From an uncultured Oscillospiraceae bacterium (lineage in GTDB: Bacteria; Bacillota; Clostridia; Oscillospirales; Oscillospiraceae): a stretch of DNA of 64,000 nt. Where the stretch lies: positions 1 to 64,000 of the forward strand of contig CAMVRT010000009.1 of the NCBI GenBank assembly GCA_947169975.1, read 5' to 3'. The notes below the pieces were generated by a model. The model saw only the letters and a list, made by a program, of their open reading frames with translations, made no database searches and had not been told where the DNA came from. The stretch's first letter is position 1, and each line of letters opens with the position of its first letter. Made by a program: the position numbers and the translations under genes. Shown here in pieces: positions 19,095 through 48,982 of this stretch.

Positions 19095-20554
19095 TGGAAC
19101 GTATCCTCCTCATTGTAGGCTTTGCTGCGGCGGTACGTGACCAGGGTGATGGTGGCGGTGATCAGGAAGGTCAGAATGCCGATAACGGCGCCGGTGTTAT
19201 ACAGATGCTGATCGATCGTCACCTTATACAGCCATGTGACCAGCAGATCCGTGCCGCCGGCCTGGTAGCCCGGGTAGGCGGGGCCGCCTCCCGTCAGCAG
19301 GAAGATGGAGTTGAAGGCGTTCATGTTTCCGATGAAGCTGGAGATCAGATACGGCGTCGTAATGAAGATGACATAGGGCAGGGTGATCTTGAAGAACATC
19401 TTCACGGTGGAGGCGCCGTCCACACGAGCTGCCTCGTACAGATCTGCGGGGATGTTCATCAGGATGCCGGAGGTCATCAGCATGGTGTATGGCACGCCAA
19501 CCCACATGTTGATGATGATGACCATGACCTTGGCCAGCGACTCGCTGTCGCCCGTCCTCAACCCCAGGAAACCGATGGGATCTGCCGTCAGGCCAAGATC
19601 GATCAGAAGGGTGTTGATGGGACCGTACTCGCCCAGCAGGTTTCTCACCGCCAGCAGAGAGATGAACTGAGGCACCGCGATGGTGAGGATAAAGATCGTC
19701 CGGAACAGCTTTTTGCCCTTCAGACCCTTCTTGTTGATGAGCAGAGCCAGGATGATGCCGCCGAAATAGCAGGTCAGAGTGGCGAAGACGGCCCAGATGA
19801 AGGTCCAGCCCAGAACGGGCAGGAACCGGTTGTGGATCTCCACGCCCAGGGAACCCTCTCCGGTAAACACCGCCCGGAAGTTCTGCAGGCCGTTCCAGTG
19901 GAACAGATTGGTGCCCAGATCGTTCATGTCCTGCTGGTTATATGTGGTAAAGGCCAGAGCGATCATGAATACGGTGGGCAGGATGGTGAACACCGCCGCG
20001 GCAATGCAGGTGGGAGTCAGCATCAGCACGTGGAACCGGCCGTCCAGCAGCTCCCGCAGATCCTCCCGGAAGGTTGTGGGCTTTTTGCCGATCTTCCGGT
20101 CCATGTCCGCCTTGTAGGACGAGGCGATGTTCAGGTTCCACACCAGGAGGTAGACGATGATCATGGCGATGGTCACGAAGCCGAACAGGATCATCAGCTT
20201 GCAGTCTGAGGAGATGGTATCGAACTGACCGGTGACCGGGTTGAATCCGCCGCCCTCGACCGTGTTTTTCAGGGACAGATTCTGCAGCGCCTTCCAGCCG
20301 TAGGGAGTGTTGTTGATCGACGGACAGAGGATCATCAGCGCCAGAATACCCACCTGAATCAGCAGGAAAAGAAATCCCTTGATATACTGCTTGTGGTAAA
20401 AATTTCCCGCTCCGAAAATAAAGTGCGACAGCTTGGTTCCCAGAGACCCGTCGACGAATCGCTTGCCGAACGAGGAGAAGGCCGTGCCGATCCGCTCCGG
20501 GAAACTCAGCCGACTCTGTTTATTTTTCGGGGCTTTTTTCACTTTTGAACCCAT
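19091..20554 (-). CDS. Maltodextrin ABC transporter permease, MalF type
   Basis: A 487-residue permease, longer than the usual 290-residue sugar permease because of an N-terminal region with two extra helices (about 59-77 and 118-141) as in MalF proteins. The EAA loop reads EAARVDGASTVKMFFKITLP near residue 380. It starts at ATG 20554 behind GGGAGGAG, 45 bp after the binding-protein gene. It pairs with the MalG subunit to import malto-oligosaccharides released by the surface amylase and pullulanase. Confidence 0.9.
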   Translation of the reverse strand: MGSKVKKAPKNKQSRLSFPERIGTAFSSFGKRFVDGSLGTKLSHFIFGAGNFYHKQYIKGFLFLLIQVGILALMILCPSINNTPYGWKALQNLSLKNTVEGGGFNPVTGQFDTISSDCKLMILFGFVTIAMIIVYLLVWNLNIASSYKADMDRKIGKKPTTFREDLRELLDGRFHVLMLTPTCIAAAVFTILPTVFMIALAFTTYNQQDMNDLGTNLFHWNGLQNFRAVFTGEGSLGVEIHNRFLPVLGWTFIWAVFATLTCYFGGIILALLINKKGLKGKKLFRTIFILTIAVPQFISLLAVRNLLGEYGPINTLLIDLGLTADPIGFLGLRTGDSESLAKVMVIIINMWVGVPYTMLMTSGILMNIPADLYEAARVDGASTVKMFFKITLPYVIFITTPYLISSFIGNMNAFNSIFLLTGGGPAYPGYQAGGTDLLVTWLYKVTIDQHLYNTGAVIGILTFLITATITLVTYRRSKAYNEEDTFQ

Positions 20555-20598
20555 AATCTCCTCCCAAAAAATGTTCAGGAATCAAATCGGCTGTCTGT

Positions 20599-22047
20599 TT
20601 ATGCCTTTTCAGGCAGCTTGGCGGGGAAGCTGCTGGGGACGACACCGTGCATCCAAAGGTACTCGATGAGGTACAGACCCTTTCGGATGCCGTCCACGGA
20701 CGTGGTCTCGGTGAGGATCTTGTCGCCGGTGGTGGGATAAGCGGTCCTGTCGATCATGGCGCGGAACACGGCGGGGGCGTTTTTGGAGTAGTAGTAGGTA
20801 TTCAGCGTGCCGGTGATGAAGGGCTGGGGGATGCCCCACTCGGACATGGCCACCTGGGTGGCGGCCAGATTGTACTGGGTCTCGGAGATCTTGCCATCGT
20901 CAAAGCTCTGCTTGATGAACTCCGTGGCGCCCACGTAGGCGGGCACGTTCATGCACTCCAGGAAGGAGGCGTTCTGCACTTCCTTGCCGGACAGGTATTT
21001 GATGAGCTCCTGCTCCTTGGCGTATTTGCTGCCGGCGGAATGGGCGTTGATCATGAAGCACTTGCAGTCGGCAAAGGTGCCGCCGCGGTACACGTCGCCG
21101 GCGGACACGCCGGAAAGCCCCTGCACGGAAGCTGCGGTCAGGGTGAAGGTGGGGATAAGGGTGATGCCCAGATTGGTCTCGCCCAGAGCGGCCATGGCGG
21201 ACTCATATTTCCATGCGCCGCCGATCACGGCCAGCACGCCCATGTTGTCCTTGTTCAGATCAGCCTCCCAGCCGTCGGGAGAGGCCCACTTGAAGCCGTT
21301 GGGATCCGCGGCGTAGTCCTGCAGCCAGCGGATGATGGCCACAGTGTCGTCGCCCTGGCAGTTGCTCGTGCCCTTGGCGCCGCCGGCCTTGGCCTCGGCA
21401 CCCTCGTAGATCTTGACGGTGGTGCTGCGGTCGCTGACCTTCCGGGCCAGCAGGGCAAAGGACATGTTGAAGCCGTCGTCGCCGGTGACGGTGACGGCCT
21501 TGGTGCCGGCGCGCTTGGCGGCAGCCTGGAGGCCCTCAAAGCTCTTGGCCTCATCCTCGGTGACCACAGCCTTGTTGTAGTACAGGAACAGGGCCTGGGA
21601 GATGTAAGGCACGCCGTACAGATACTTGGTGTTGTCCATCGTGGAATAGATCACGTTCTGGTATGCCTCGGGGTTGTCTGCCAGAACCTGATCGATCAGA
21701 GCCTGATCGGTGATGGGCTTGGCGCACTGGGTGGAGGCCAGCTTGCCGATGTTGTCGTGAGCAACGGTGTAGATATCCGCCGCGGCGGTGGGGTCGTTGG
21801 TGATGGTGCCGGCCACGGAGCCGGTGTCCATGCCTTTGACCTCGATCTTGTAGCCGAAGTCGGAGTGCTTGGCAACGTATTCATCGCAGATCTTCTGGTA
21901 AAACTCTGCCGACTCCTCACCGACCCAAAGCCGGATGATGCCGTCGTCAGAGACACCGGGCCCGCCGTTGGCGCCGCCGTTGCCGCAGGCGGTCAGCAGG
22001 GAGGCCACCATGGCGATAGCCAGCAGGAATGCAAATATCTTTTTCAT
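20599..22047 (-). CDS. Maltodextrin-binding lipoprotein of ABC transporter
   Basis: A 482-residue extracytoplasmic solute-binding protein. The signal peptide MKKIFAFLLAIAMVASLLTACGN has the lipobox LTAC, so it is lipid-anchored. The body resembles family 1 sugar-binding proteins of the MalE group (IRLWVGEESAEFYQKICDEY; SGKEVQNASFLECMNVPAY; YNLAATQVAMSEWGIPQP). It overlaps the RDD gene stop by 4 bp (ATGA). It delivers maltodextrin to the MalF/MalG permease. Confidence 0.88.
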   Translation of the reverse strand: MKKIFAFLLAIAMVASLLTACGNGGANGGPGVSDDGIIRLWVGEESAEFYQKICDEYVAKHSDFGYKIEVKGMDTGSVAGTITNDPTAAADIYTVAHDNIGKLASTQCAKPITDQALIDQVLADNPEAYQNVIYSTMDNTKYLYGVPYISQALFLYYNKAVVTEDEAKSFEGLQAAAKRAGTKAVTVTGDDGFNMSFALLARKVSDRSTTVKIYEGAEAKAGGAKGTSNCQGDDTVAIIRWLQDYAADPNGFKWASPDGWEADLNKDNMGVLAVIGGAWKYESAMAALGETNLGITLIPTFTLTAASVQGLSGVSAGDVYRGGTFADCKCFMINAHSAGSKYAKEQELIKYLSGKEVQNASFLECMNVPAYVGATEFIKQSFDDGKISETQYNLAATQVAMSEWGIPQPFITGTLNTYYYSKNAPAVFRAMIDRTAYPTTGDKILTETTSVDGIRKGLYLIEYLWMHGVVPSSFPAKLPEKA

Positions 22048-22718
22048 CGTTTTTCTCCTCCTTGGAATGAATTGATGCCATCATATGACAGTTTTTCTAT
22101 CATCATGATGCCGGTTACATAGTCACATACGGTTTTGTTTTTCTCCCGGCTGATCAGCAGCTCCACCAGCCGCAGCACCGGCAGCAGCAGAAAGGTCAGA
22201 ATCCCCGTGTAGAGATACAGGGCCAGGCTGTCGATCACCAGCACGAACAGGAACCGGGATACCACCTGATACCATGCCATCCGGGACTGCCGCTTTTCGC
22301 TGAAGGGGATGATCCCCGTCATCAGCTTGCCGGGCGTCGCCCGAAACCGGTTCAGGAACGGGCACACCAGCAGGATCAGGCTCTCCGCCAGAAAACAGGC
22401 GGCGGCCTTGAGCAGATAGCCGTGCAGATTTGCCGCGAAACGCTCGTCCTGATAGGCTGTGTTCCGGCTCAGCGCCTCGCCGATGGCTGCAGAGTCGCCG
22501 TCCAGCGCCGCGGCGGTCGTCTCCTCGATGGCCCTGTACTGCGCGTAATGGGCGTTGTAGGTATCTGCCAGAGGCGTTTTCAGCAGCAGCGCCGTGAACA
22601 CCATGAACAGCACGAAAATCAGGAAGATGTCAAACCCGTCCGCTGCCAGCCTCTTGACGAGCAGGGGCTTGGAATTCGGCTCGAGCTCGATTTGTCTGCC
22701 GTGGACATCAACTTTCAT
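22044..22718 (-). CDS. RDD family membrane protein in the starch operon
   Basis: A 224-residue protein with an N-terminal soluble strand (MKVDVHGRQIELEPN) and three to four hydrophobic helices. The first contains the RDD-type pattern (KRLAADGFDIFLIFVLF) and the second region FNRFRATPGKLMTG has the family's conserved PGK. RDD proteins are poorly understood; some affect ion transport or envelope stress. It sits between the ATPase (1-bp gap) and the binding protein (4-bp overlap), so it is co-translated with the importer. A transport accessory role is inference. Confidence 0.78.
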   Translation of the reverse strand: MKVDVHGRQIELEPNSKPLLVKRLAADGFDIFLIFVLFMVFTALLLKTPLADTYNAHYAQYRAIEETTAAALDGDSAAIGEALSRNTAYQDERFAANLHGYLLKAAACFLAESLILLVCPFLNRFRATPGKLMTGIIPFSEKRQSRMAWYQVVSRFLFVLVIDSLALYLYTGILTFLLLPVLRLVELLISREKNKTVCDYVTGIMMIEKLSYDGINSFQGGEKR

Positions 22719-22719
22719 G

Positions 22720-24606
22720 TCAGCAGATCTTCATGTCAATGGCGGTGGAGTATACGGAGATATCCTCGCTGTTAAAGGCGATGCGCGCCTGATCTGCCCG
22801 GAAGTCGGGCGCAACGTGAATCAGGAATTCCTGGCCGGCGGCCTCCACCCGTGCAAAGGCGACGTTGCCGTAGTCCAGCAGCTCCAGCACGGTGCAGTCC
22901 AGACCGGGCTCGTCGTCCCGCACCTGACGGATACACTGGCGGTTCACGGCGTAGCGGTAGGTGTTCTTGTAGCAGGCATCCCCGTCGATGGAGTTGATCT
23001 TGTAGCCCTGCTCCGGCGCAGCCTCCACGGTGTAGCCGCCGATGTTATAGAAGAAGTGGAGCACACGTGCGCCGTTCTCCCGCGTCTCCTTCTTGGAGAA
23101 GCTGCCGGTAATGGACACATCATCATCCACTGCCGCCAAAACCTCTGCGCCGTCCACAGAGACGTTGATCTTTTCATTCAGGAGCGAGAAGGCGTATTCA
23201 TCGCCCTCCCGGACATTCTCGCCCACCAGGGCGAAGAGGTAGCTGTCGCCGTTGGCGAGGTAGGCAAGACGCTTGTCGTCAACCGCCTCGATGCGGGCCA
23301 CCTTCAGCCGGAAATCGTTGCCCGGCACAATGGCCTGGGGCGGGATAATGAGCTCGAAGCGGCCGGCGTCCTTTACGGCCGCCTGAATGACCGGCGGGAT
23401 GGCGACCCGGCTGTTCAGCAGATGCATTTCGCCGCCGGAGACTGTGGCCTCCACCGTGTTGTAGGGAGGGATCTTGCTCATCAGGGTGACCTCGGTCTCG
23501 GCGTCGAAGAAGTGGACCTTGTTGGGGTTGGGGACGGCGTAAACAACATCGTCCACCTCAATGTCATCCCGATCCACCACCTTGACGATGATGCTGTTGC
23601 CCTCGTCCTTCATGGTGAACTCGCCCAGCTGGTCGCCCAGCTTGCCGTAGACGATGGTCTCGTTGCCCAGCCGCTCCACGTTGGTGACGACGAACTTCAG
23701 GCCGCTGCCGTCCCTGGCCAGAGAAATGTGCTCGGGGCGGATGCCGAAGGTCACCGTGGTCCGGCCGTCCAGATAGCGGGGATGGATCTTGCAGACCTTT
23801 TCATAAGGAACGGTGACGCGGTCGCCGTTGACAAAGGTGACGGTCACGTTTTCGCCCTCGCGCTTCAGCGTTACGTCAAAGAAATTCATCTGGGGCGTGC
23901 CGATGAAGCCGGCCACGAACTTGTTGTAAGGCTCGTTGTACAGGTTCATGGGGGTGTCGATCTGCTGGACGTAGCCCAGCTTCATGACCACGATGCGGGT
24001 GCCCATGGTCATGGCCTCCACCTGATCGTGAGTGACGTAGATGAAGGTGGTCTGCAGACTCTTGTGAAGGGATGTGATCTCCGTGCGCATGGCGGCGCGG
24101 AGCTTGGCGTCCAGATTGGACAGGGGCTCATCCAGCAGGAAGACCTTGGGATCCCGCACGAGAGCACGGCCCAGAGCCACACGCTGACGCTGGCCGCCGC
24201 TCATCTCCTTGGGCTTGCGCTCCAGATAGTCCTCGATGTCCAGCATCTTGGCCGCCTTCAGGACGCGCTCTTTGATCTCGTTCTCGGGCATTTTACGGTT
24301 TCTCAAACCGAATGCCATGTTCTCGTACACGGTCATGTGGGGATACAGGGCGTAGCTTTGGAACACCATCGCGATGTCGCGGTCCTTGGGCTCCATGTCG
24401 TTCACCAGCGTGTCGCCGATAAACAGATCGCCTGCAGTGATCGTCTCCAGTCCGGCAATCATGCGCAGCGTGGTGGACTTGCCGCAGCCGGAGGGACCGA
24501 CGAAGACGATAAATTCCCGGTCGGCAATGTCGATGGAGAAATCGTTGACCGCCTTGTGTCCGTTGTCATAGACCTTGTAGATGTGGGAAAGCTTCAGATT
24601 TGCCAT
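22720..24606 (-). CDS. Sugar ABC transporter ATPase (MsmK/UgpC type) with long C-terminal extension
   Basis: The ATPase that powers the maltodextrin importer. It shows Walker A GPSGCGKS (37-44), the Q-loop VFQSYALYPH, signature MSGGQRQRVALGRAL (from 135), Walker B VFLLDEP (155-161), H-loop H193 and a regulatory OB/TOBE domain to about residue 360. The protein is 628 residues, against about 370 for the family. The extra 260 residues (SKIPPYNTVEATVSGGEM onward) contain more beta-rich segments and a second TOBE-like end (ARIAFNSEDISVYS). RBS GGGAGGAG precedes ATG 24606. Firmicutes often use one shared MsmX ATPase; a dedicated, enlarged one is unusual. Confidence 0.9.
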   Translation of the reverse strand: MANLKLSHIYKVYDNGHKAVNDFSIDIADREFIVFVGPSGCGKSTTLRMIAGLETITAGDLFIGDTLVNDMEPKDRDIAMVFQSYALYPHMTVYENMAFGLRNRKMPENEIKERVLKAAKMLDIEDYLERKPKEMSGGQRQRVALGRALVRDPKVFLLDEPLSNLDAKLRAAMRTEITSLHKSLQTTFIYVTHDQVEAMTMGTRIVVMKLGYVQQIDTPMNLYNEPYNKFVAGFIGTPQMNFFDVTLKREGENVTVTFVNGDRVTVPYEKVCKIHPRYLDGRTTVTFGIRPEHISLARDGSGLKFVVTNVERLGNETIVYGKLGDQLGEFTMKDEGNSIIVKVVDRDDIEVDDVVYAVPNPNKVHFFDAETEVTLMSKIPPYNTVEATVSGGEMHLLNSRVAIPPVIQAAVKDAGRFELIIPPQAIVPGNDFRLKVARIEAVDDKRLAYLANGDSYLFALVGENVREGDEYAFSLLNEKINVSVDGAEVLAAVDDDVSITGSFSKKETRENGARVLHFFYNIGGYTVEAAPEQGYKINSIDGDACYKNTYRYAVNRQCIRQVRDDEPGLDCTVLELLDYGNVAFARVEAAGQEFLIHVAPDFRADQARIAFNSEDISVYSTAIDMKIC

Positions 24607-24667
24607 ATTCTCCTCCCTCTTATTTTAAATTTTTTCTTTTTTGATTCAATGCGCGGGAATCTATGCA

Positions 24668-25081
24668 TCAATCAAAGTGGACGCCGCCTTGATCCAGCCG
24701 ATTCAGGAGCCGGTCGATGCCGGTCAGCTTGGCGTTGATGGTCCCCAGCAGCTCACCTTTCGAGCCGTACACAGAGTATATGTCGTCCTTGTACGCGAGC
24801 CGACCGATCCTGTCCAGGGGAACCCGGGTTCTGCGGAAAAGATAGCGCATATATAGCGTGCCGTCCTTGATGTATGCCTGATCCGATACCATGGCGAACA
24901 GCACCGCGCCGGAGGCGGCGGCCACCACCGCCAGCAGGATCCCTGCGAACACGCCGAGAGCATGACCCCGGCTGAGGACAATGACCAGCACCGCGGCGGT
25001 CAGACTGCCGGCAAAGGCGATCAGCGTGAACCAAAACGGCTTTTTATCCGTTTCCGTACTGACGTCACCGTGTCGGAACAT
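24668..25081 (-). CDS. Small membrane protein with PH-like domain, function unknown
   Basis: A 137-residue protein with two helices near the N-terminus (about 17-39 and 42-66), followed by a soluble beta-rich region (AYIKDGTLYMRYLFRRTRVPLDRIGRLAYKDDIYSVYG) like a bacterial PH-type domain. It starts 1 bp beyond the pullulanase stop and precedes the ATPase by 61 bp, so it belongs to the starch operon. I do not recognise a named family; a role beside the importer is inferred only from position. Confidence 0.65.
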   Translation of the reverse strand: MFRHGDVSTETDKKPFWFTLIAFAGSLTAAVLVIVLSRGHALGVFAGILLAVVAAASGAVLFAMVSDQAYIKDGTLYMRYLFRRTRVPLDRIGRLAYKDDIYSVYGSKGELLGTINAKLTGIDRLLNRLDQGGVHFD

Positions 25082-25082
25082 A

Positions 25083-27878
25083 TCAGCCCACCTTCTTCAG
25101 CACGACGGACTCGTTGTTTCCGACCTGGAAGACGCCGGAAACGGCAGAGCCGGCATCGCGGACGTTGGAGTATACGATCACGTAGCCGCCGTCCAGCTCG
25201 AAGCTGCCGCCCGTCAGGGAGTGAATGACCAGCAGATCGTCCACACGGAAGGAGATGTTGCCGCCGTCACAAACCACATCTGTCAGCCGCTCGGCGATCT
25301 CCTGACGGCTGGAAAGCCGGAAGGAGTCGTGCTCGGCGCGGAGGGCGATCAGCTCTTGAACCTTCTCAAAGGTGTCCATGTGGTCAATCTTCAGGGAGTA
25401 GTCCATGACGTTGACAAAGTCGCCCGCGTTGTAGGAGTTGCCCTCGTACTTCCCGGTGTCGGGATCCAGCTTGCTGCGCATGAACTCCTCGCCCTCCTGA
25501 ATGAAGGGCACGCCCTGGGACAGGAATACGATGGACTCGGCTTGGGTATAGGCAACGGGCAGACGATCCTCGTTCATGGTCTGCACCAGCTGGTCGTACA
25601 GCGTGTAATTGTCGTGGCAGGATACGTAGTTGAGCACCTGATTGGGATCGATGCGCTGGGTTTTTACCGTTCCGTTGGAGAACTTGCCCTCCAGGCACAT
25701 GGCGATCAGCGAAGCATTGGCGGAGCTGCCCTGCACGTAGCCCTTGCCGGGATTGTTCTCGCCGCGCACGGCGTTGCGGATCACATCGTTGAACGCGCCG
25801 ACCAGTACGCCGCTGCCGCAGAAGAAATCCTGGGCAAGGGATTCCTGCACGGTGGTCTGCTCTGTCAGCGCCGTGTCGCTGACGCCGGCCTTCAGCTTGG
25901 AGGCTCCGCCGGTCCACGGCTCGCCGTAAATCATGATATGGGGGCAGAGAGCCTTGCAGTCGTTGTAGATGTCGATCATGGTCTGGTTGTCGATGAGGCC
26001 CATCAGGTCGAACCGAAAGCCGGAGAGGTGGTACTCATCGATCCAGAACCGGCAGGAATCCCGGAAGAACCTGTTGACCATGTACCGCTCGGAGGCCAGC
26101 TCGTTGCCGCAGCCGGAGCCGTTGTAGAAGGCGCCGTTGGCCTTGGTGCGGTAGTAATAGTAGGGCACCAGCAGGTTGAGGTTGGAGTTTTCAGAGGCGC
26201 TGGTGTGGTTGTAGACCACGTCCATATTGATGGAGAGGCCTGCCTGATGCATGGCCATGACCATCTGCTTGAACTCGACAATGCGGTTGTAGCCGTCATA
26301 GGGATCGGTGGAGTAGCTGCCCTCCAGCACGTTGTAGTTCAGGGGATCGTAGCCCCAGTTGTAGTTGTCCTTCGACATCTCGCTGCCGGAGCGGGTCTCA
26401 TCCACGGAGGAGTAGTCGTAGAACGGCTGGAGCTGTACATGGGTCACGCCCAGCTCTTTTACGTGGTCAAGGCCGGTGGACACGGTCACGCCATCCCTGG
26501 TGCAGGTGGTGCCGGACTCCGCAAGGCCCAGGAATTTGCCCCGATTCGCCTCAGTCACGCCGCTGGTGGGGCTGATGGTCATGTCCCGGACATGGGCCTC
26601 GTAGATCACCGCGTCGGTGCTGTTTCCGTCAAAGGGCCGCCGGTCCTCTGCCCAGCCGGGGAGGGAGGCGTTCAGCTTCGTAAAGTTGACCACCATGCCG
26701 CGGCGGCCGTTGACGCCGGCGCTCCTGGCGTAGGGATCCACCACCTCGTTGGTGCCCTTGGCATTGGAGACCACGTAAGTGTAGTACTTGCCGTCCAGAT
26801 CCTCGTTTACCGTATAGCTGAACACACCCTTTTCGCCCTTCTCCATGGTATAGGCGGCGGCAGGTGCCGTCTCGGTCATGTAGTCGCCGGTATTGTAGAT
26901 ATTCAGCACCATCGAGCTGCTGGTCGGCGCCCAGACCTTAAAGGTGGTGGCCGTTGGGCTGTCCTCGTTGTCAAATGTCACGCCCAGATCGTCTCCGTCG
27001 TAGGCGTAGCGCAGATTGAATTCCTCGGTGTCAAAATAGTTGGTCATCATCAGCTCCACTTTGTTGATCCAGCTGCTGTCGAAGCGGTATCTGACCGCAA
27101 CAACGTCAGAGATGTCGATATCGTCCTTCAGCGTCAGATCCACCCGGTTCAGGGAGGAATCGTACTCGCCCATGGTGAAATCGCCGTAGTCTTTCCCGTT
27201 CACCGTGAGGGAGAAGCGGGGAGCGTAGGACTTGAAATCCGCAGCCAGCGGCTTGAAATAAACGCTGATCGTTTTGGCGTCCCGCAGCATGGCATAGCTG
27301 ATGATGGATTTCAGGGCGTTCTCCTGGGTGTCGAACACCGTGGATTCCGTGGTGCGGACGTAGACGTTCTGGATGCCGCCCGGGGTCTCGGGCAGGATGT
27401 CGATGGAGCGATCGCCGTCGGGATCCTTGGACCAGTTGTCCGTCCGGACGATAAAACCGATCCGGTCCGTCCCCTGCCCGTCGGAGATCACGGCCAAGTC
27501 CAGATCGGCGTAGACACCGTAGTCGTCGTAGCCGGTGAAGGGGTAGGCTGCGCCGCTGCCGCCGTTTGCCATATCCCATGCCCACACGTTCCAGGGCTGG
27601 TAGCAGCTCCTGTCGTTGGCGGTATCGTCGTTGCGCCGGTAGTGCAGGCGCACGGTTTTCGTGGCCTCCTGAGGCATGGAGTCATAGTCGGTATCGTCCT
27701 TTTTGTACTGGGCGATCACGTCGCCTGCCGGCTCCAGCGTAATGGGCTTGTCATCAGGTCCCTCGTCCGCGGGCTTGCTGTCCGGCTTTCTGCTGACGCT
27801 GCCGCTGCTGCCGCACCCTGCCAGCAGCAAAATAGCCAGAAGGAACGCGATCACAGATGTGTATTTTCTGCTTTTCAT
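25083..27878 (-). CDS. Type I pullulanase lipoprotein
   Basis: A 931-residue starch-debranching enzyme that cuts alpha-1,6 links outside the cell. The signal peptide [20 protein letters not shown] ends in the lipobox LAGC. An N-terminal CBM41-like region ([16 protein letters not shown]) is followed by a CBM48 domain ([21 protein letters not shown]), then the GH13 barrel with the pullulanase signature YNWGYDP, nucleophile region [10 protein letters not shown], acid/base [11 protein letters not shown] and [10 protein letters not shown]. It lies 15 bp after the alpha-amylase gene. Released linear maltodextrins would feed the ABC importer encoded downstream. Confidence 0.93.
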
Positions 27879-27893
27879 GGAAACCTCCCCCGG

Positions 27894-29924
27894 TTAAAAT
27901 CCGGTCATGTCAAAGAAACCGGCCTTCAGAATATCGCCCTTGATGTCGGCGCTCTGCTTGATGACGTTGGGATCCCAGCTGTGTATATCCTGAACCTCGT
28001 AGCCCTTGGGGAACACGGCGATGAGGAAGCCCTCCATGCCGGCAGTGTCCACCAGCATGACGCCGTCCCGGATCTCATAGTTTTTGCTCCATATACCGGG
28101 CGACCAGCTCCAGATATATAGCTCGCAGTCGCCGGTAAGATATTTGTCCGGCAGGTTGACCACGTTGAAGCCGCCCGCAAGCAGCTGCAGCTGCTGATAG
28201 GTGAAGGTCTGCTCCCGGGTGTTGACGCCCTTGCGGAGACAGACGTGGAGCTGCACCGTTCCGTTCTCCACATGGGGGGAGAGCTGCACGGTGGCTGTAC
28301 CGTCGATGGGATGGCGGTCGGACTGGCCGTTGAAATAGTAGTACGCCTCGTCGCAGTTGGTTGCCTTCAGGGTGATTTCCTTCTCCCCCACAAAGGAGCA
28401 GTCCCGCTCCGAGATCTCCAGCCGGGGATGCACGTCCTTCGAGCGGGTGATGACCGCCATGCCGTTTGCCTCAAACCGCACACTGGCCACGTGGTCGGTG
28501 ACCGCCACCGGATTGCCGGTCAGGGCATCGTAGTAATTTCCGTTTTCCAGATGGGGCACGGCAACCCGGACCGTTTCCTCCGGATCCACGTCGCCCACGT
28601 TCAGGATCAGCACGCCCTGATCGTCCGCGCCGATCTTCTCATTTATGTAACAGCTTCCATCCACAGATTCGTAGGAATCGGCGGCATAAAAGCGGTTGTG
28701 AAAGCGGTTGGAAACCGCAACATATTCACTCTCAAAAGCATAGGAGCCAATCTGACCTACCGTCAGCTCCCCGGTGGGTCTTGCCAGATACAGTCCGCCC
28801 AGATCCTGCTTTGCCGCGATGACAGACCAGTATTTGGCCACCCGCACATCGGAGTAGTGGGTGTTGGTGGTCACGTACTCGTCGTGGCTCTCCACCCAGG
28901 CGATCAGCGCCGAGGCGCTGTCTGTTTTCAGACTGGCGTTCAGAATCTTGGAGGGATCCTTGGCAGCAAAGGCGTTTTTAAACTGAGCGGCGTAGCCGTC
29001 GTCAGTGATACGCATGATGTCGGTGTAAACCGACAGATCGCGCCCTGCGGGTGCGTTGAGGATTTCCCCGTATACGTACAGGTTTTTCCCCGTCTTTTCG
29101 CGGTAATATTCCTTGGCCTTCACCACAGTGTTTTCCCAGAAGTCGCTGGGATAGTCGGGATCGGAGGAGGTCTCAATGTGCTTGGCGGCGTCGAAGCGGA
29201 ACCCGTCCACGCCGGCGTCGATGCATTCCATGAGCAGCGCAAGCACCCGCTGCTGCACATAGGGGTTGGAGGTGTCCAGATCCGGCAGGTTGCCGTAGGC
29301 GTAGTACTGGGTCTCCGCGCCGGAGCCGGCGGCGGTGCGGTTGTGGTGGAAGGTCACGCCGATGCCGTCCACGTCCTCGTTGCGGTTGCGGTAGATAATG
29401 GGCTCATACTCCTCCACGGCGGGGGAGACGGTGGGGGTGCCGTCCGGCTCCTTGCCCTCGTCGTCGGTGGTGGCCAGATGGTTCGCTACTACGTCCACCA
29501 GGATGCAGATGCCGTATTTCTCCGCCTCGCTGCACAGGGCGATCAGCTCGTCCTTGGAGCCCAGGGCGGAATTGTTCCCGATGGAAAAGCTCAGGGGCTG
29601 GTAGAAGGCCCACCAGGCGGAGCCGCCGCCCTTGGGCTGCTGCACCGGCATGGTCAGCACATTCTTGAAGCCGGCGTCCCGTATGCCCTCCAGATTCACC
29701 ATGATCTCATGGTACGTCCAGTTAAAGGCGTGAAGCGTCAGTCCGTCCTCCGCGTTTTCGGGCAGAGCGTCCACATAGGTGTCCGGGAAATCCATATATT
29801 CCGTCAGTTGAGGGGCCTTGTCTGCTTCCGCAGGCTGCGGGTTATTGTTCTTGCCGCAGCCGAACACCGGCAGCACCAGCAGGGCTGCCAACAGGAGACA
29901 AACGATTCTTTTGGCTGTTTTCAT
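27894..29924 (-). CDS. Alpha-amylase lipoprotein (GH13)
   Basis: A 676-residue secreted amylase. The start MKTAKRIVCLLLAALLVLPV at 29924 gives a lipoprotein signal with lipobox VFGC; a frame extending to 29981 runs through the upstream terminator and is rejected. The four GH13 regions are visible: VDVVANHLA, GFRFDAAKHIE (nucleophile), YVYGEILNAP (acid/base) and WVESHDEYVT. After the barrel and C domain, about 200 residues form beta-rich modules (ISERDCSFVGEKEITLKATN; NGTVQLHVCLRKG), possibly starch binding. It is the first gene of the main starch operon after the terminator at 29968-29996. Confidence 0.92.
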   Translation of the reverse strand: MKTAKRIVCLLLAALLVLPVFGCGKNNNPQPAEADKAPQLTEYMDFPDTYVDALPENAEDGLTLHAFNWTYHEIMVNLEGIRDAGFKNVLTMPVQQPKGGGSAWWAFYQPLSFSIGNNSALGSKDELIALCSEAEKYGICILVDVVANHLATTDDEGKEPDGTPTVSPAVEEYEPIIYRNRNEDVDGIGVTFHHNRTAAGSGAETQYYAYGNLPDLDTSNPYVQQRVLALLMECIDAGVDGFRFDAAKHIETSSDPDYPSDFWENTVVKAKEYYREKTGKNLYVYGEILNAPAGRDLSVYTDIMRITDDGYAAQFKNAFAAKDPSKILNASLKTDSASALIAWVESHDEYVTTNTHYSDVRVAKYWSVIAAKQDLGGLYLARPTGELTVGQIGSYAFESEYVAVSNRFHNRFYAADSYESVDGSCYINEKIGADDQGVLILNVGDVDPEETVRVAVPHLENGNYYDALTGNPVAVTDHVASVRFEANGMAVITRSKDVHPRLEISERDCSFVGEKEITLKATNCDEAYYYFNGQSDRHPIDGTATVQLSPHVENGTVQLHVCLRKGVNTREQTFTYQQLQLLAGGFNVVNLPDKYLTGDCELYIWSWSPGIWSKNYEIRDGVMLVDTAGMEGFLIAVFPKGYEVQDIHSWDPNVIKQSADIKGDILKAGFFDMTGF

Positions 29925-29967
29925 ACGCAGATCCCTCTTCTTGTCGATGATTTCCCGGATGAAGAAA

Positions 29968-29996
29968 CAAAGGGGCCCCATAAAGAGGCCCCTTTG
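29968..29996 (-). terminator. Hairpin between the starch-binding lipoprotein and alpha-amylase genes
   Basis: A perfect 10-bp stem (29968-29977 with 29987-29996) lies directly after the stop of the upstream gene (30007). On the minus strand it is followed by a weak T run, so it may be a partial terminator that lets some transcription reach the amylase gene; no separate promoter for the amylase was found. Confidence 0.6.
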
Positions 29997-30006
29997 TCAA
30001 GGCAAT

Positions 30007-31044
30007 TTACTTCGCGACAACGTTGACGGTACCGTCAGCACCGTCGAAGGTGATGGTGATGACATAGGTGCCGTCAGCCTCGCAATGGCAGTTGCCATCC
30101 TCGCTGTCAGGATCGCCCCAGCTGTAGTCCCAAGCGCCGTCAGCGCGGACCTTGAAAGCGTCGCCGGCAGCCAGCTCGACCTCACCGGTCCAGGAACCGT
30201 CACCGTTATCGGTCATAGCGACGTCTTTGCCGTCCTCCCAGTTGGAGCCCTCGAAGCTGCCCACGATGCCGTAGGTGTGATCAGCGGGGACGTACTCCAC
30301 GATCTCCTCATAAGCCTGGCCGTCCTTGGCCTCCTTCAGCACCAGACCGATGCCGAAGCCGGCCTGCTCGGGAGTGGAAGCGTTGTTGTACTGGGCAATG
30401 ACCAGGGTGTACAGGCCGGCGCCGCCGATGACGACGGGGTTGCTGGCCCAGGAGAAGCCGTTCTCATCGGCCTCTTCCTGCCACACGGGCATGAACATGG
30501 TGGCGGGAGTCAGAGACTCGGCATGAGCGGTGTGGGGATCGCTGATCCACTGATCCTCGGCGTAGACCTTGTTGTCGCCGTCCACGTCGACGCTGCACTG
30601 GGCGACCTTGAACGCATAGGAGCCGTTGGCACGATACAGCTTGCCATCCTTCAGGAAGTTGGTGGTCCAGCCGGCGTCGTTGGTGCCGAACAGCAGGTCG
30701 ATGGTGTACAGGTACTTGACGTCCTTGCCGGACAGCGCGGTGTACAGGTCGTTGTCGATGGCCTTCACGTCCTCGAGGGCGATGGCCTTCAGAGCGGAAG
30801 CCTCATACAGGGCGGAATCCTTGCCGTTCCAGCCGTTCTCGGTGCCGTCAGAGAGCAGGAACTGGCCGTGGGCAACCCAAGCGGCGTGGGTCTCGTCTGC
30901 CAGAGGGGCGGCGGGCTGGTTGGGCTCGGGCTGGGTCTGGGGATCGTTCTTGGGCTCATTGGTGCCGCCGTTGTTCGTCTGACCGCAGGCGATCAGAGCG
31001 AAGAGCATGACGACAGCCAGCAGAGCTGCAGCAAATTTCTTCAT
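30007..31044 (-). CDS. Putative starch-binding lipoprotein
   Basis: A 345-residue lipoprotein: signal MKKFAAALLAVVMLFALIACG (lipobox LIAC), then a Pro/Gln/Asn-rich linker (residues about 22-50). The middle region is not recognised. The C-terminal about 95 residues (YGIVGSFEGSNWEDGKDVAM, then GDGSWTGEVELAAGDAFKVRADGAWDYSWG) resemble the SusE/SusF-like starch-binding modules with conserved tryptophans. No catalytic motif is seen. It probably binds starch at the cell surface beside the amylase and pullulanase. ATG 31044 is chosen over 31056 because AGGAG would overlap the earlier start. Confidence 0.7.
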   Translation of the reverse strand: MKKFAAALLAVVMLFALIACGQTNNGGTNEPKNDPQTQPEPNQPAAPLADETHAAWVAHGQFLLSDGTENGWNGKDSALYEASALKAIALEDVKAIDNDLYTALSGKDVKYLYTIDLLFGTNDAGWTTNFLKDGKLYRANGSYAFKVAQCSVDVDGDNKVYAEDQWISDPHTAHAESLTPATMFMPVWQEEADENGFSWASNPVVIGGAGLYTLVIAQYNNASTPEQAGFGIGLVLKEAKDGQAYEEIVEYVPADHTYGIVGSFEGSNWEDGKDVAMTDNGDGSWTGEVELAAGDAFKVRADGAWDYSWGDPDSEDGNCHCEADGTYVITITFDGADGTVNVVAK

Positions 31045-31161
31045 GGTTGTGTACATCTCCTTTTTTCATCATTCTTGCATTTTATTACCGCAACGACACA
31101 TCGGCGTCGCTGTGAGTAAACAATAAAAGGTGAATCAGCGGGTGATAATGCAATCCCGCTC

Positions 31162-31462: not shown

Positions 31463-34264
31463 TTACGGATCCACCTTTGCCCCGCAATGATCGCAGAATT
31501 TGGCGTCGTGGGGCAGCTTTGCGCCGCAGTGCGTGCAGAAGACGAATTGCGGCTCTGTCGGCTTCACTTTCTTTGCAGCGGCGGGCTTGCCAGCGGCTTT
31601 GGCAATGGTGGGCGGCACAAGCAGGAAGAAGAGAACGATCAGCACGGAGAAGAGGATGAACATCGCCTTGTGCTGTTCCCACTTCGACAGGATCGGGGTA
31701 AACCAGTGCTGCTGCGTTGTTTCAACGGAGGCAGAACGACCGTCCTCTTTCACCTTGATGGATCCGCCGACCATGGTTTCCGGGCATCTCCAATCGTATG
31801 TGGCCGCCTCCATGGAATCAAGCTGGAACGCGCCTTCGTCATCTGTTTTAATGGAGAAGAGATAGGCGTCGTCCCGGTAGATATCGATGGTCTTTTCCTT
31901 CAGTGAATCGCCGAAATCTGCACGGACGGAAACGGTGGGGATGATTTCAATCTGCTCAATGGAGTCAATAATGGCATCGCCCACCTCCGAAGCGTCTGAA
32001 ACACCGGAGTAGCTTCCACCGGTTTCGGTTGAAATGTTTTCGAAGAAGTCTGCCGCATCGCTGCTTGCATCCGTTCCGATGGAATAGACGGTTATCAGGC
32101 TGCCATCCATTGCCCCGGCGACTCTGCGGTCTGAATGATCGTAATCAAGGCTGATCTCGGCGTTGATCAGCGCGTTCAGAACATCATCAAAGGTGTATCC
32201 CGTTTCGGGTTCCGGGTCAAGAGGAGCAGCGTCTCCCAGAATGATGATGACTTTTTTCGCGTTGGGACGCCAGTCCAGCCCCACTGCGGCCATGAGTCCG
32301 GAATAAACGGTTTCTTCGGTATCGCCGCCGTGGCCCAGATCAAGTCCGTTAATGGCACTCTCGATGGCTTCGTTGTCGCTTGTAAATCTCAGCTGGATCT
32401 GAGAGGGATAATCATAGGAACGCCCCGTCCTGCTGGAAAAGTCGCGGTAATCAACCAGTGCCACCCGATAATCCGACGTTTTCTCTGACAGGTGGAGGAG
32501 GATCTCCGACATATTCTCCTTTGCGTTGTCAATATCGTCTCCCATGGAACCGGTCGTATCCACCACAAAGCAGAGGTCCAAGCCGTTGCTGGCTGATGTA
32601 TGCAGCACCTTGCCGACGGAATTGTTCCGGGTCTGAAGGGCGTTTACCACAGCCATATTTGCATCGATCATACCGCTGTATCCGTTGTAGTAATAAAAAC
32701 GTCCGGCTGTGGATGCAAGCAGGATGTTTTTCACATCAGGACCGCTTAAATCGGGATTGCACGCAAAGACCAGTCCTGCCACGCCGGCCACATGGGGCGT
32801 TGCCATGGATGTACCGCTCAATGAAGCGTATCCGCTGGCTGTACAGCTGTACACATGCTCTCCGGGCGCCACGACATCCACCCGGTCTCCCACATTTGAA
32901 AAGGCGGAATAGGAATACTTGGTCTGTGCGCTTGTGGATCTGTCATAATCAATGCCCACAGAGCCTACGACAATAACGCGATCCTTGACTTCGCTGGCGC
33001 TCATCAGGTTCAGGAAATTGTTGTAAAGGGCCAGGGAGTTGCCGATTTCACCGCGCCACCCGAATACGTATTTGATGGACTCCCCGGCAGTCGCGTCCTC
33101 GCGGTAACCGTACGGCGCGTCCTCGTCCTTATAATAATAAGTGCTGTTGCTGTTGCCCGCAGCCACGCAGATGACAAAGTCACCCTTGCCCGCAGCTTTT
33201 CTGGCAGCGATGATCCGCAGCAAACCTGCCTCCGTCAGCTCTGCCTGCCGGGTCAGATAGTCGATGGCGTTCTGATTCCCGTGACTTGCGGCGAAGCCAA
33301 CCAGTCTGCTCGTGTTCTGGCTGATGTTGATGACCTGCACATCCTGATCGATAAGTGTCTTCAGGGCCAGCAGATAACTGTATGCGGTCCCGTATCTCGA
33401 TGAAATGCTGCCGTTGGTATCATAATACACGGCGCTGTAATACAGGCTGCCCTTCCCGCCGGTTACGCCGGAAACGCCGATATCATTATTCCACTCTGCC
33501 CCCATGATTCCGGATACATGGGTTCCGTGATCCGCGGCTGAGATGGTATAGGTATTCGTGCTCGTTGAGCCGGTTTCGGTGTCAACAAACAGGCAGCTGG
33601 TATTGGCAAAAGACAGATCCGGATGCGAGGAATAGGGCATGGTATCAATCAGGCCGATACGGACGTTGCTCATCTGATCCAGGTAGCCCCAGGCTCCCGG
33701 TGCGTTGATGGCCTCCATGCCCCAGTTTTCTCCACTGGGGACCGAGGTGTTCCAGGCGTCTCCGCTCCAGTCATCCTTCGGATATACAGGGCTCTGATAG
33801 TCGAAGTCCTCATCGATCGCATCCGCCTCAAGGGGCGAGACGGTGTTAAAGTACGCGTCCGCAACAGACAGGTTTTCCTTGATCTCCGTAATGGTCGATT
33901 CCAGCTTTTTGTAGGACATCCGGGCCGGATAAGTAAACTTGTAGATGCCGATATCGGCCATCGTATCATCGATGGTCGCTCCCTGTTCTGCGGCAAGGGC
34001 GTTCATATCGCCGGATCCGGCGTCCGCTGCAGCGACCACAACGATTTCGTTGTTCACATAGAGCAGGCCGCTGCTTTCATTGAAATCGATCTGCTCATTT
34101 TCCTCGGCAATGGTTTCTATTCGGGCAGAGGGATCTGTGGAGCGGTACAGATCACTGTTTTGGAGCTTGGGGAAAATCAAATATACCCACGACACAAGGA
34201 AAGCGGCAACACAAAGAACAAGAACCGCAAAGGCAATCAGAAGATTTTTGAGTACCTTATTCAT
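31463..34264 (-). CDS. Membrane-anchored subtilase - VWA - zinc-ribbon protein
   Basis: A 933-residue protein of unusual architecture. Residues 8-30 form a membrane helix; 40-180 a propeptide-like region; about 195-545 a subtilisin-family (S8) protease with D207 (RIGLIDTM), H246 (DHGTHVSG), oxyanion N371 (AAGNSNS) and S486 (SGTSMATPHVAG); about 560-770 a von Willebrand A domain with a MIDAS-like D569-x-T-G-S573 and D678; 775-850 a beta-rich module; 867-885 a second membrane helix; then a cytosolic tail ending in a zinc ribbon (C910, C913, C924, C927). The catalytic and VWA parts would face outward, the zinc ribbon inward. Base composition is lower in GC than the flanking genes. It overlaps the upstream membrane gene by 4 bp. 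The substrate and role are unknown. Confidence 0.88.
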   Translation of the reverse strand: MNKVLKNLLIAFAVLVLCVAAFLVSWVYLIFPKLQNSDLYRSTDPSARIETIAEENEQIDFNESSGLLYVNNEIVVVAAADAGSGDMNALAAEQGATIDDTMADIGIYKFTYPARMSYKKLESTITEIKENLSVADAYFNTVSPLEADAIDEDFDYQSPVYPKDDWSGDAWNTSVPSGENWGMEAINAPGAWGYLDQMSNVRIGLIDTMPYSSHPDLSFANTSCLFVDTETGSTSTNTYTISAADHGTHVSGIMGAEWNNDIGVSGVTGGKGSLYYSAVYYDTNGSISSRYGTAYSYLLALKTLIDQDVQVINISQNTSRLVGFAASHGNQNAIDYLTRQAELTEAGLLRIIAARKAAGKGDFVICVAAGNSNSTYYYKDEDAPYGYREDATAGESIKYVFGWRGEIGNSLALYNNFLNLMSASEVKDRVIVVGSVGIDYDRSTSAQTKYSYSAFSNVGDRVDVVAPGEHVYSCTASGYASLSGTSMATPHVAGVAGLVFACNPDLSGPDVKNILLASTAGRFYYYNGYSGMIDANMAVVNALQTRNNSVGKVLHTSASNGLDLCFVVDTTGSMGDDIDNAKENMSEILLHLSEKTSDYRVALVDYRDFSSRTGRSYDYPSQIQLRFTSDNEAIESAINGLDLGHGGDTEETVYSGLMAAVGLDWRPNAKKVIIILGDAAPLDPEPETGYTFDDVLNALINAEISLDYDHSDRRVAGAMDGSLITVYSIGTDASSDAADFFENISTETGGSYSGVSDASEVGDAIIDSIEQIEIIPTVSVRADFGDSLKEKTIDIYRDDAYLFSIKTDDEGAFQLDSMEAATYDWRCPETMVGGSIKVKEDGRSASVETTQQHWFTPILSKWEQHKAMFILFSVLIVLFFLLVPPTIAKAAGKPAAAKKVKPTEPQFVFCTHCGAKLPHDAKFCDHCGAKVDP

Positions 34265-34818
34265 GCCGAAGCTCCCCCTTTCTTATGGGCGGTGATCAAG
34301 CCCAGGGAAATAAAGATCGAAGCGATCACAAAACACGTCAGAGCAATGACAATCAACAGATTTCCCAGCGCTGGCGCTGTTTCCAAAAGGCCGTCCCGCA
34401 ATGCGCCGGGCAGGTGTCTGGCCGTTACAGGGCACAGCAGGCCGGAGACAAGTCCGATCCCGCCGGGGATGACAAATGCCATTCCGAGGGACATGAAAAG
34501 CTGCTTTGAAGACCTCCTGTTCTTAAGAACGATCATCAGCAGGAGGAACAGCAGGAGGATGAGGCAGATAATCGTCGGGAAAACGGTGGCGAAGAAGCCG
34601 CCGCCCGCGCCGCTGTCGGAATCTGAGGGTTGAATGATTGCGTCGCCCGCCGCTGCCTGATAAAAACTGACCGCAATGGTTATCTCCAGCAGCAGGCCGA
34701 AAAGAATGACAAGAAATCCGGTGAGAACCCGGGAGAAACCTGCCTTTTCGGGCTTGGGCTGAATAGGAACCTGTGATGTGTTGACAGAGGCCTGCGGTGA
34801 TTGTTTTTCTTTTGCCAT
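34261..34818 (-). CDS. Four-helix membrane protein coupled to the subtilase-VWA gene
   Basis: A 185-residue protein with a polar Gln/Pro/Lys-rich N-terminus (about 25 residues), then four predicted membrane helices (about 29-50, 75-98, 106-128 and 148-172). A short Ser/Asp/Gly-rich loop (QPSDSDSGAGGG) lies after the first. No known family is recognised. Its stop overlaps the start of the subtilase-VWA gene (34261-34264), which implies co-translation and a shared membrane complex. ATG 34818 has GAGGGATCGCC upstream. The base composition is similar to its partner and lower in GC than the neighbourhood. Confidence 0.7.
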   Translation of the reverse strand: MAKEKQSPQASVNTSQVPIQPKPEKAGFSRVLTGFLVILFGLLLEITIAVSFYQAAAGDAIIQPSDSDSGAGGGFFATVFPTIICLILLLFLLLMIVLKNRRSSKQLFMSLGMAFVIPGGIGLVSGLLCPVTARHLPGALRDGLLETAPALGNLLIVIALTCFVIASIFISLGLITAHKKGGASA

Positions 34819-34926: not shown

Positions 34927-34976
34927 TTAACAATCTACTGTGTTAATAATCTATCATGTGTGCCGAATAAAGTCAA
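34927..34976 (-). promoter_or_regulatory. Promoter of the subtilase-VWA operon with direct repeats
   Basis: On the minus strand TTGACT (34971-34976) and TAGATT (34948-34953) are 17 bp apart. Two direct copies of TAGATTNTTAA (34943-34953 and 34927-34937), 16 bp apart, begin at the -10 and run into the transcribed region. They may be binding sites for an unidentified regulator. Confidence 0.5.
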
Positions 34977-34980
34977 GAAA

Positions 34981-35087
34981 CGCGAAAGATGTAAGGCCGC
35001 CCGCCAAAAAGAACAAGCACCCACCGAAGTGAGTGCTTGTAAAAGAGACCTTTTAGCGCTTGGAGAACTGAGGTGCGCGACGGGCGG
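34981..35087. repeat. Diverged duplicate of the rpsI 3' end and terminator (copy A)
   Basis: Copy A (34981-35087) repeats the block at 35149-35259. It contains, on the minus strand, the last ten codons of rpsI plus stop ([10 protein letters not shown]) with only synonymous changes, and then a terminator hairpin of different stem sequence (35013-35024 with 35029-35040) at the same place, and the shared tail GGCGGGCGGCCTT. The mix of a conserved gene end and a divergent hairpin points to DNA from another strain rather than simple slippage; this is how integration at a gene 3' end looks. Confidence 0.75.
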
Positions 35088-35148: not shown

Positions 35149-35259
35149 CGCGAAACATGCCAAAAGGCCGCCCGCCAAAAAAAGTACCTGCCCCGTTCGG
35201 AGCAGGTACATAGTTTGAAAACGGTTAGCGCTTGGAGAACTGAGGAGCACGACGGGCGG
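35149..35259. repeat. Genuine rpsI 3' end and terminator (copy B of the repeat)
   Basis: The partner of copy A. It spans the real rpsI stop and terminator. The about 60 bp between the copies (35088-35148) are GC-rich with a small hairpin and no open frame. Confidence 0.75.
35177..35209 (-). terminator. Terminator of rplM-rpsI
   Basis: An 11-bp stem (35184-35194 with 35199-35209) with a GTTC loop is followed on the minus strand by seven T residues. It starts 16 bp after the rpsI stop. Confidence 0.9.
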
Positions 35260-35629
35260 CCTTCAGACCGTACTTCTTGCGCTCCTTCATGCGAGGATCG
35301 CGGGTCAGGAAACCGGCCTTCTTCAGCAGAGGACGGAACTCGGGATCCATCAGCAGCAGGGCGCGGCTGATGCCGTGACGCAGGGCGCCGGCCTGGCCGG
35401 ACACACCGCCGCCCTCGACGGTGGCGACGATGTCCACCTTGCCGGTGGTGTTGGTGGTGTTCAGGGGCTGACGGACGACCATCTTCAGAGTCTCCAGACC
35501 GAAGTACTCGTCGATGTCGCGGCCGTTGATGGTGATCTTGCCGGTGCCGTTCTGGAACAGGTGCACGCGGGCCACGGAGGACTTGCGACGGCCGGTGCCG
35601 TACAGATAGGGATTCTTGGACTGATACAT
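35225..35629 (-). CDS. rpsI: 30S ribosomal protein uS9
   Basis: A 134-residue S9 with [12 protein letters not shown] near the N-terminus, [20 protein letters not shown] in the middle and the conserved C-terminal tail RRAPQFSKR, whose final Lys-Arg reaches the P-site tRNA. It is 14 bp downstream of rplM, in the universal L13-S9 operon. Its 3' end is duplicated at 35055-35087. Confidence 0.97.
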
Positions 35630-48789: not shown

Positions 48790-48817
48790 AATAATCTTCC
48801 ATGAGGCCCGTGGCCCC

Positions 48818-48966
48818 CACCGTTTCAAGCTTTAGCATCGCCGGGCGGTGAAACTGCGTTAGATGATACCTTGGTTTCGATATCGCCTGTTCAAACCCTC
48901 TCATGGTGTCTCCACCACTTCGCGGCAGCAGTCCGTATCCCTGCGGTAGCCTTACCTACCGGACGT
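48818..48966 (-). ncRNA. M-box (ykoK leader) magnesium riboswitch
   Basis: The minus strand contains the conserved M-box elements in order: GGTAGGTAAGGCTACC (P1/P2 region), GGATACGGACTGCTGCCGC, AACCAAGGTATCATC, and GATGCTAAAGCTTG. Mg2+ binding compacts this aptamer and lets the downstream terminator form, so mgtE is expressed when magnesium is low. The ends of the aptamer are estimated. Confidence 0.9.
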
Positions 48967-48982
48967 GATTTACTTCCCGTTT

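Follow-up and report, generated by a model that had tools for sequence, protein, structure and literature searches.

Subtilases of the S8 family with a fervidolysin-type prodomain combine this prodomain with a protease domain that carries the full catalytic triad and an oxyanion asparagine, and the mycosin of type VII secretion is a membrane-anchored subtilase. Here, we analyzed a 64,000-nucleotide stretch of DNA from an uncultured Oscillospiraceae bacterium (contig CAMVRT010000009.1; the whole stretch is hereafter called the window), in which a gene at 31463–34264 on the (−) strand encodes a 933-residue protein that shares prodomain, S8 domain, triad and oxyanion asparagine with these subtilases and adds two membrane segments, a VWA domain, a beta domain and a zinc ribbon predicted to be cytosolic. 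Subtilisins, thermitase and Tk-subtilisin are its best PDB sequence matches among the matches listed; the PDB matches fall in the prodomain-S8 region (best 60 of 150 and best 60 of 152), and the VWA region alone returned no PDB match by phmmer. The mycosin model (TIGR03921) is its best NCBIfam match (E = 1.3e-23), having the S8 part only in common; the score of 83.7 bits lies far below the equivalog cut-off of 278.75, and the window protein has a VWA domain and a ribbon besides.

The pspA-ydjGHI operon of Bacillus subtilis shows a comparable design, an operon of membrane proteins with zinc ribbons. As described in the excerpts available of the two papers, YdjG has two ribbons and one more resides in a protein printed as YdjL, taken here as YdjI (PMC11237479), and YdjI and PspA are no longer recruited to the membrane once ydjG or ydjH is deleted (PMC8581546). 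No homologous protein was seen at our locus, and the likeness is one of design, not of descent. MoxR-vWA ternary conflict systems, according to the accessible part of their description, include peptidases and a VWA domain with a metal-ion-dependent adhesion site (MIDAS) proposed to capture peptides, the MIDAS motif mediating binding of an extended or unstructured peptide (PMC7159879). Those systems are built on a MoxR ATPase, whereas inspection by eye of the surroundings of the eight loci compared below revealed none; no model search for MoxR was made there. Finally, the Streptococcus element IMESag-rpsI, of about 9 kb, integrates at the rpsI 3' end, a known site of the streptococcal element in the excerpt available (PMC5090054) and the site inferred for the genus of the window, which retains only a 35-nt repeat. 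Each domain of the 933-residue protein is familiar and membrane-anchored subtilases are known; the combination in one chain was not found described among the papers viewed, PMC7159879 and PMC10907252 included, most subscription journals lying outside that coverage.

Domains, residues and topology of the protease

A previous description drawn from the DNA letters (hereafter the sequence-only reading) had proposed a 933-residue protein whose gene overlaps that of a four-helix membrane protein by 4 bp, and both open reading frames (ORFs; 31463–34264 and 34261–34818, (−) strand) were confirmed. From N to C terminus, the single 933-residue chain comprises a membrane segment, a prodomain, an S8 protease, a VWA domain, a small beta domain, a second membrane segment and the predicted cytosolic zinc ribbon. 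In a Pfam domain search, S8, VWA and zinc ribbon all scored above curated cut-offs. Peptidase_S8 (PF00082) matched residues 200–519 (32708–33667, (−) strand; E = 5.9e-29, 101.7 bits, cut-off 21.8), VWA_4 residues 564–685 (E = 2.5e-12, 47.2 bits, cut-off 27), VWA residues 563–760 (31985–32578, (−) strand; E = 4.9e-9, 37.1 bits, cut-off 23.8) and Zn_Ribbon_1 (PF13240) residues 909–931 (31472–31540, (−) strand; E = 2.2e-7, 30.9 bits, cut-off 25); VWA_2 also exceeded its cut-off (E = 5.8e-6). No NCBIfam model reached its cut-off for the 933- or the 185-residue protein of the pair, nor for the two relatives tested (L034 and L035).

Two parts that the sequence-only reading had not described were also recognized. 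A fervidolysin-type subtilase prodomain occupies residues about 61–150 (33815–34084, (−) strand); its model PF22148 remains below the Pfam cut-off of 21 bits in the window protein (15.1) and in L008 (20.2), exceeds it in L010 (21.9) and L035 (24.3), and is not listed for L007. A small all-beta domain follows the VWA domain (residues about 776–850; 31715–31939, (−) strand), and L010 gives an fn3_3 match below the Pfam cut-off. In an AlphaFold2 model of the 933-residue protein, built with six sequences, the prodomain is confident and of beta-alpha-beta type (blocks of predicted local distance difference test score, pLDDT, of 87–91 at residues 71–140), the VWA domain consists of alternating strands and helices, and seven strands of moderate confidence span residues 777–850.

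We compared eight full-length proteins: that of the window, L004–L008, found when a single genome of each species was scanned (titled Clostridia, Clostridiaceae or Ruminococcaceae in their records), and G058 and G725, which whole-genome searches added from the family and the class of the window, respectively. Overall identity to the window protein is 46–60% for six relatives. Every residue highlighted by the sequence-only reading is identical in all eight: D207, H246 and S486 of the S8 triad, N371, the oxyanion asparagine, and D569, T571 and S573 (DxTxS) with D678, MIDAS residues to which we add the equally invariant T652, as well as the ribbon cysteines C910, C913, C924 and C927. Invariant positions in this alignment amount to 100/365 in S8, 75/215 in VWA and 2/40 in the region of the second membrane segment; conservation is highest in S8 and VWA, which fits a protease and a VWA domain that operate as one unit. 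After the second segment, every protein has one to four CxxC...CxxC ribbons, and the C-terminal ribbon is kept in 8/8 although the preceding linker differs widely in length. The domain order claimed earlier is likewise conserved at 8/8 loci, the S8, VWA, ribbon succession being called by Pfam in L010, L007, L008 and L035 and judged by alignment in L004, L005 and L006.

The two anchors of the sequence-only reading, with protease and VWA outside and ribbon inside, are also what hydropathy and charge predict. The first segment (residues 9–27; 34184–34240, (−) strand) is a probable signal anchor with a cytosolic N terminus and lies within a helix at residues 3–34 of the model, and the second (residues 869–887; 31604–31660, (−) strand), positive on its C side, coincides with a long modelled helix. 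Net positive charge flanks both on the presumed inner sides, and two hydrophobic segments with inner-side positive charge are predicted in all eight proteins.

In the window's own genome, another VWA protein (L002, G000:C10) is 28% identical over 206 positions to the VWA domain described here; its sequence, viewed by eye, shows a hydrophobic segment and lacks a protease domain.

Distribution, partner and gene neighborhoods

The distribution of the S8-VWA-ribbon protein is sporadic. Counting the window's own genome each time, positives number 1/32 in the genus (14/32 genomes at least 90% complete; none found in the 31 others), 2/150 in the family, 2/245 in the order, where the second is an S-layer-type protease matched over prodomain and S8, 5/391 in the class, two of them full-length, and 2/398 in the phylum, one of them full-length; these samples overlap and their E-value limits differ. 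The family of G725 gave 1/16, the query's own genome counted. L009, matched over only 81 residues of S8, was rejected as a relative, and G262, G704, G565 and G066, partial model matches, were not counted as S8-VWA-ribbon proteins; the G704 and G262 sequences were inspected, and G565 and G066 were judged on the matched range alone.

The upstream gene encodes the 185-residue four-helix membrane partner (34261–34818, (−) strand), which has four membrane segments by hydropathy and no Pfam match above cut-off or PDB match by phmmer. The coupling proposed earlier holds for part of the family and is not universal: a partner homologue lies directly upstream of the protease in 5/8 loci, with overlaps of 4 nt in the window, 17 in L004, 17 in L006, 8 in L010 and 0 in L005 (71 nt apart). 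By hhalign, the window partner matches its four relatives at 95.6% (E = 1.3e-8, 89 columns); four segments are predicted in 4/5 members and five in L005. Partners of L004, L005 and L010 carry an N-terminal CxxC...CxxC motif not present in the window and L006 copies, and this ribbon stays below the Pfam cut-off of 25 in both proteins run (24.8 in L004, 19.7 in L034/L010). In the outgroup-free protease tree of the eight proteins, a 100/100 branch separates precisely the five partner-bearing loci from the other three. A tree with two S-layer-type subtilase outgroups (branches ~10, broken topology, three changes of the partner label rather than one) was set aside. Among 300 family genomes searched for the partner (150 for the protease), strong matches occur only in the window genome and G058 (223 and 300 bits), both protease carriers; weak partial profile matches in 11 of the 13 matching genomes (25.5–36.9 bits) were not counted as partners. 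Protease and four-helix protein are a real pair, not an obligatory one.

Further ribbon proteins recur beside some relatives. The G058 operon (L034) comprises, in this order, a 179-residue C-terminal-ribbon protein, a 795-residue N-terminal-ribbon protein, a 153-residue two-ribbon protein, the partner, an S8-VWA protein with two ribbons, and a Trypsin_2 and PDZ (HtrA-type) protease, that is, five ribbon-bearing proteins, with the partner's ribbon below the Pfam cut-off, and an HtrA-type protease. L004 has the order 815-residue ribbon protein (sub-cut-off PD40 match), partner, protease and DEAD/UvrD helicase, its ribbon protein being a 52% identical relative of the 795-residue protein. Searched against the seven other carrier genomes, the latter has a clear relative in one, that of L004, and in the genome of L006 it is matched weakly over its N-terminal 59 and 108 residues. 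Two four-segment membrane proteins with C-terminal ribbons lie upstream in L007; as partner homologues they were rejected, only the zinc ribbons aligning and not the membrane parts.

Ten neighbors from six loci were scanned with models and the remainder judged by eye. Besides the L004 helicase, the scanned set comprises a radical SAM protein (L005), RecJ and PdxS types (L006), an aldo/keto reductase (L007), a nucleotidyltransferase, MarR and an FMN oxidoreductase (L008), and SbcD and TrmO types (L035). A very large BspA-type leucine-rich-repeat protein lies directly downstream of the S8-VWA protein in L005 (L005:8949–16076; first 1000 residues scanned). Elsewhere in the window's own genome, a 680-residue open frame with six zinc-ribbon matches lies beside a 182-residue frame with three (G000:C16:33182–34671; L041, L042, L044, L045, L048, L050, L052, L054, L055).

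Composition of the segment and the rpsI 3' end

The lower GC (guanine plus cytosine) content seen by the sequence-only reading was borne out: of the 64 kilobases, the five with the least GC include those from 31001, 32001, 33001 and 34001, the fifth (62001) containing transfer RNA genes. The two genes have third-position GC (GC3) values of 0.646 and 0.634, which lie 5.5 and 5.8 standard deviations below 35 ORFs picked by eye as credible (mean 0.845, standard deviation 0.036), and only 2.0 and 2.2 below all 50 other ORFs, a set that includes 15 doubtful or short ORFs and comes from a list pre-filtered for GC3 above second-position GC; 3/50 are lower, all doubtful by eye.

The pair comes after rpsI (ribosomal protein S9; 35225–35629, (−) strand; orthologues in 9/11 genomes searched). 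The terminal 35 nt of rpsI recur with 94% identity at 35053–35087 ((−) strand), 172 bp from the original (35225–35259), and this repeat is likely an attachment-site scar; similar copies exist in relatives, and its 20-nt core is expected 0.00 times in shuffles. A promoter-like site before the pair (34948–34976, (−) strand) is a consensus match only, the region having 5 such sites against 2.6 ± 1.9 in shuffles. No rpsI-end repeat was found on the far side of the pair, the window having only two copies at ≤3 mismatches of 20, and no integrase was found by Pfam in the two genes of the pair, the credible ones among the overlapping ORFs between rpsI and 31056.

Nine rpsI regions were compared, from the window, G058 and seven relatives within the genus; 3/9 have a second rpsI-end copy downstream, namely the window as well as G751 (at 3.3 kb) and G036 (at 1.5 kb). 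The rpsI-end pattern occurs in 24 of the genus's 32 genomes and at least twice in 10 of them, in G756 and G765 via one-mismatch copies; in G760, G762, G764, G771 and G777 the extra copy and rpsI are on different contigs and adjacency is not established. Integrases (PF00589) end about 110–140 nt before the copies in G760 and G777, G762 has an integrase fragment after rpsI, and the scars of the window and G771 are 82% identical over 226 bp. The genes beside the copies differ, being HsdR-like in G762, LytTR in G036 and HTH_3 with a sub-cut-off HipA_C match in G751. Extra 3'-end copies were noted at the window, L027, L029, L063, L064, L065, L066 and L069. The rpsI 3' end is probably an integration hotspot in this genus, and an rpsI-integrating element likely captured the pair, a two-gene segment apparently imported from elsewhere. 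For the transfer suggested by the sequence-only reading, low GC content and the adjoining repeat speak in favor; on the other side, the window does not now lie on a recognizable element. Full-length relatives were found neither in viral contigs (50 pattern matches, none related) nor in plasmids (64 records, none with 80% coverage, and no DNA match either) or phages (49 records, none with 80% coverage). A Vibrio plasmid match (H1; 23% identity, query 245–699) falls under no gene in the incomplete gene table shown.

These observations bear on the possibility that the pair is a defence system carried as cargo in the hotspot. In its favor are the low GC content, the scar and the rpsI-end copies of other species of the genus, which adjoin an HsdR-like gene (L066), an HTH_3 gene with a sub-cut-off HipA_C match (L027) and integrases (L064, L069). 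In PADLOC, the window protein matches the 'subtilase' model PDLC03014 (E = 1.2e-12, 46 bits; the search gives no cut-off), although within the S8 domain only. The helicase downstream of the L004 protease matches DpdF best (E = 5.4e-96, 320.7 bits) and GajB models too, but with 66 models matched over its helicase regions this may be generic, and no system companion was noticed by eye. Other scanned neighbors gave weak or generic matches (a viperin-type match of 51 bits for the L005 radical SAM protein, three at 25–40 bits in L008 and L035), five having none. Protease and rpsI are on separate contigs in G058, and this and the viral, plasmid and phage results above argue against defence cargo. 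The flanks of the other relatives, viewed by eye, showed no rpsI.

Downstream of the pair, an alpha-amylase match (27894–29981) and a sub-cut-off X25 match (30007–31056) were found by Pfam within an apparent sugar-uptake cluster (18162–31056, (−) strand), the transporter parts of which were assigned by eye. An ordinary M-box magnesium riboswitch is located at 48809–48970 ((−) strand; 85.7 bits).

Candidate functions

The domains, the invariant residues, the conserved order, the clade-restricted partner and the low GC content are established. We tentatively favor a membrane-tethered envelope protease, in which the VWA domain would capture extended peptides and the ribbon would dock the enzyme into a membrane complex. 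As judged from hydropathy and charge, the protein would span the membrane twice with both ends inside, placing prodomain, S8 and VWA on the outer side. The prodomain would assist S8 folding and would then probably be cleaved off in cis like that of other subtilases, the second membrane segment still holding the enzyme. With its intact MIDAS set, the VWA domain may bind an extended or unstructured substrate peptide and present it to the adjacent S8 site, which would cleave it. The cytosolic ribbon may be a docking point for other membrane proteins with ribbons and for the four-helix partner, and this docking could localize or gate the protease within an envelope quality-control complex.

The envelope system postulated by the sequence-only reading finds an envelope-type context in some relatives, with ribbon proteins upstream in L004, L034 and L007 and the HtrA-type protease downstream in L034, and these ribbon-bearing neighbors support the favored envelope complex. 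The complete catalytic, MIDAS and Cys4 residue sets and the two-segment topology predicted in all eight proteins likewise speak for it. By analogy, the available portions of work on B. subtilis pspA-ydjGHI provide an example of an envelope-stress complex whose membrane proteins bear ribbons (PMC8581546, PMC11237479), which can serve as a precedent.

Several observations weigh against this interpretation. Neighbors vary between loci and include housekeeping types (RecJ, PdxS, TrmO, SbcD) among L005, L006, L007, L008 and L035; L006 has, by eye, the four-helix protein alone, and no partner was seen in L008 and L035 (neighboring ORFs viewed by eye). The window partner is only 21–25% identical to the others and has no ribbon, and zinc ribbons are frequent in the window's genome (23 matches), which leaves a complex-specific docking role unproven. 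The AlphaFold2 model has a mean pLDDT of 62 and a predicted template modelling score of 0.53, with an uneven S8 part and active-site stretches below 50; active-site geometry is beyond the reach of a model this weak there.

Somewhat unlikely, though the strongest competitor, is an ordinary surface or nutrient S8 protease of clostridial type, whose VWA domain would serve plain adhesion and whose ribbon would be a generic tail of the lineage. S8-only relatives (L011 and L014) have the look of surface proteins, with S-layer-type repeats (by eye, n = 2), the weak-X25-match and alpha-amylase genes (27894–31056) follow the window pair, and the abundance of ribbons in the genome would suit a generic tail. 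However, such sugar genes were not noticed by eye beside relatives, the C-terminal ribbon persists in all eight proteins despite its variable linker, and partner and further ribbon proteins recur.

A version with gating across the membrane appears less probable still: ribbons of several operon proteins would assemble inside and switch the outer S8-VWA protease, the VWA domain choosing substrates, such that an intracellular state would be passed outward by proteolysis. The 'ligand sensor' and 'signalling' roles named by the sequence-only reading found no direct support. We regard as improbable a mycosin-like protease that would mature components of a secretion system or of a surface assembly, to which the top NCBIfam match and the membrane anchoring of mycosin would point, because that match is confined to the S8 part far below cut-off and no secretion gene was noticed by eye among neighboring ORFs, where no model search for such genes was made. 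Marginally weaker again is the defence cargo discussed above, against which the predicted outside position of protease and VWA also counts.

If the favored envelope protease is correct, one defined, testable chain would unite a protease and a ligand-binding domain outside the cell with a zinc ribbon inside it, and the family would provide a handle on the role of zinc-ribbon membrane proteins in such bacteria. In addition, the locus draws attention to the 3' end of rpsI as a site where cargo recurs within one genus.

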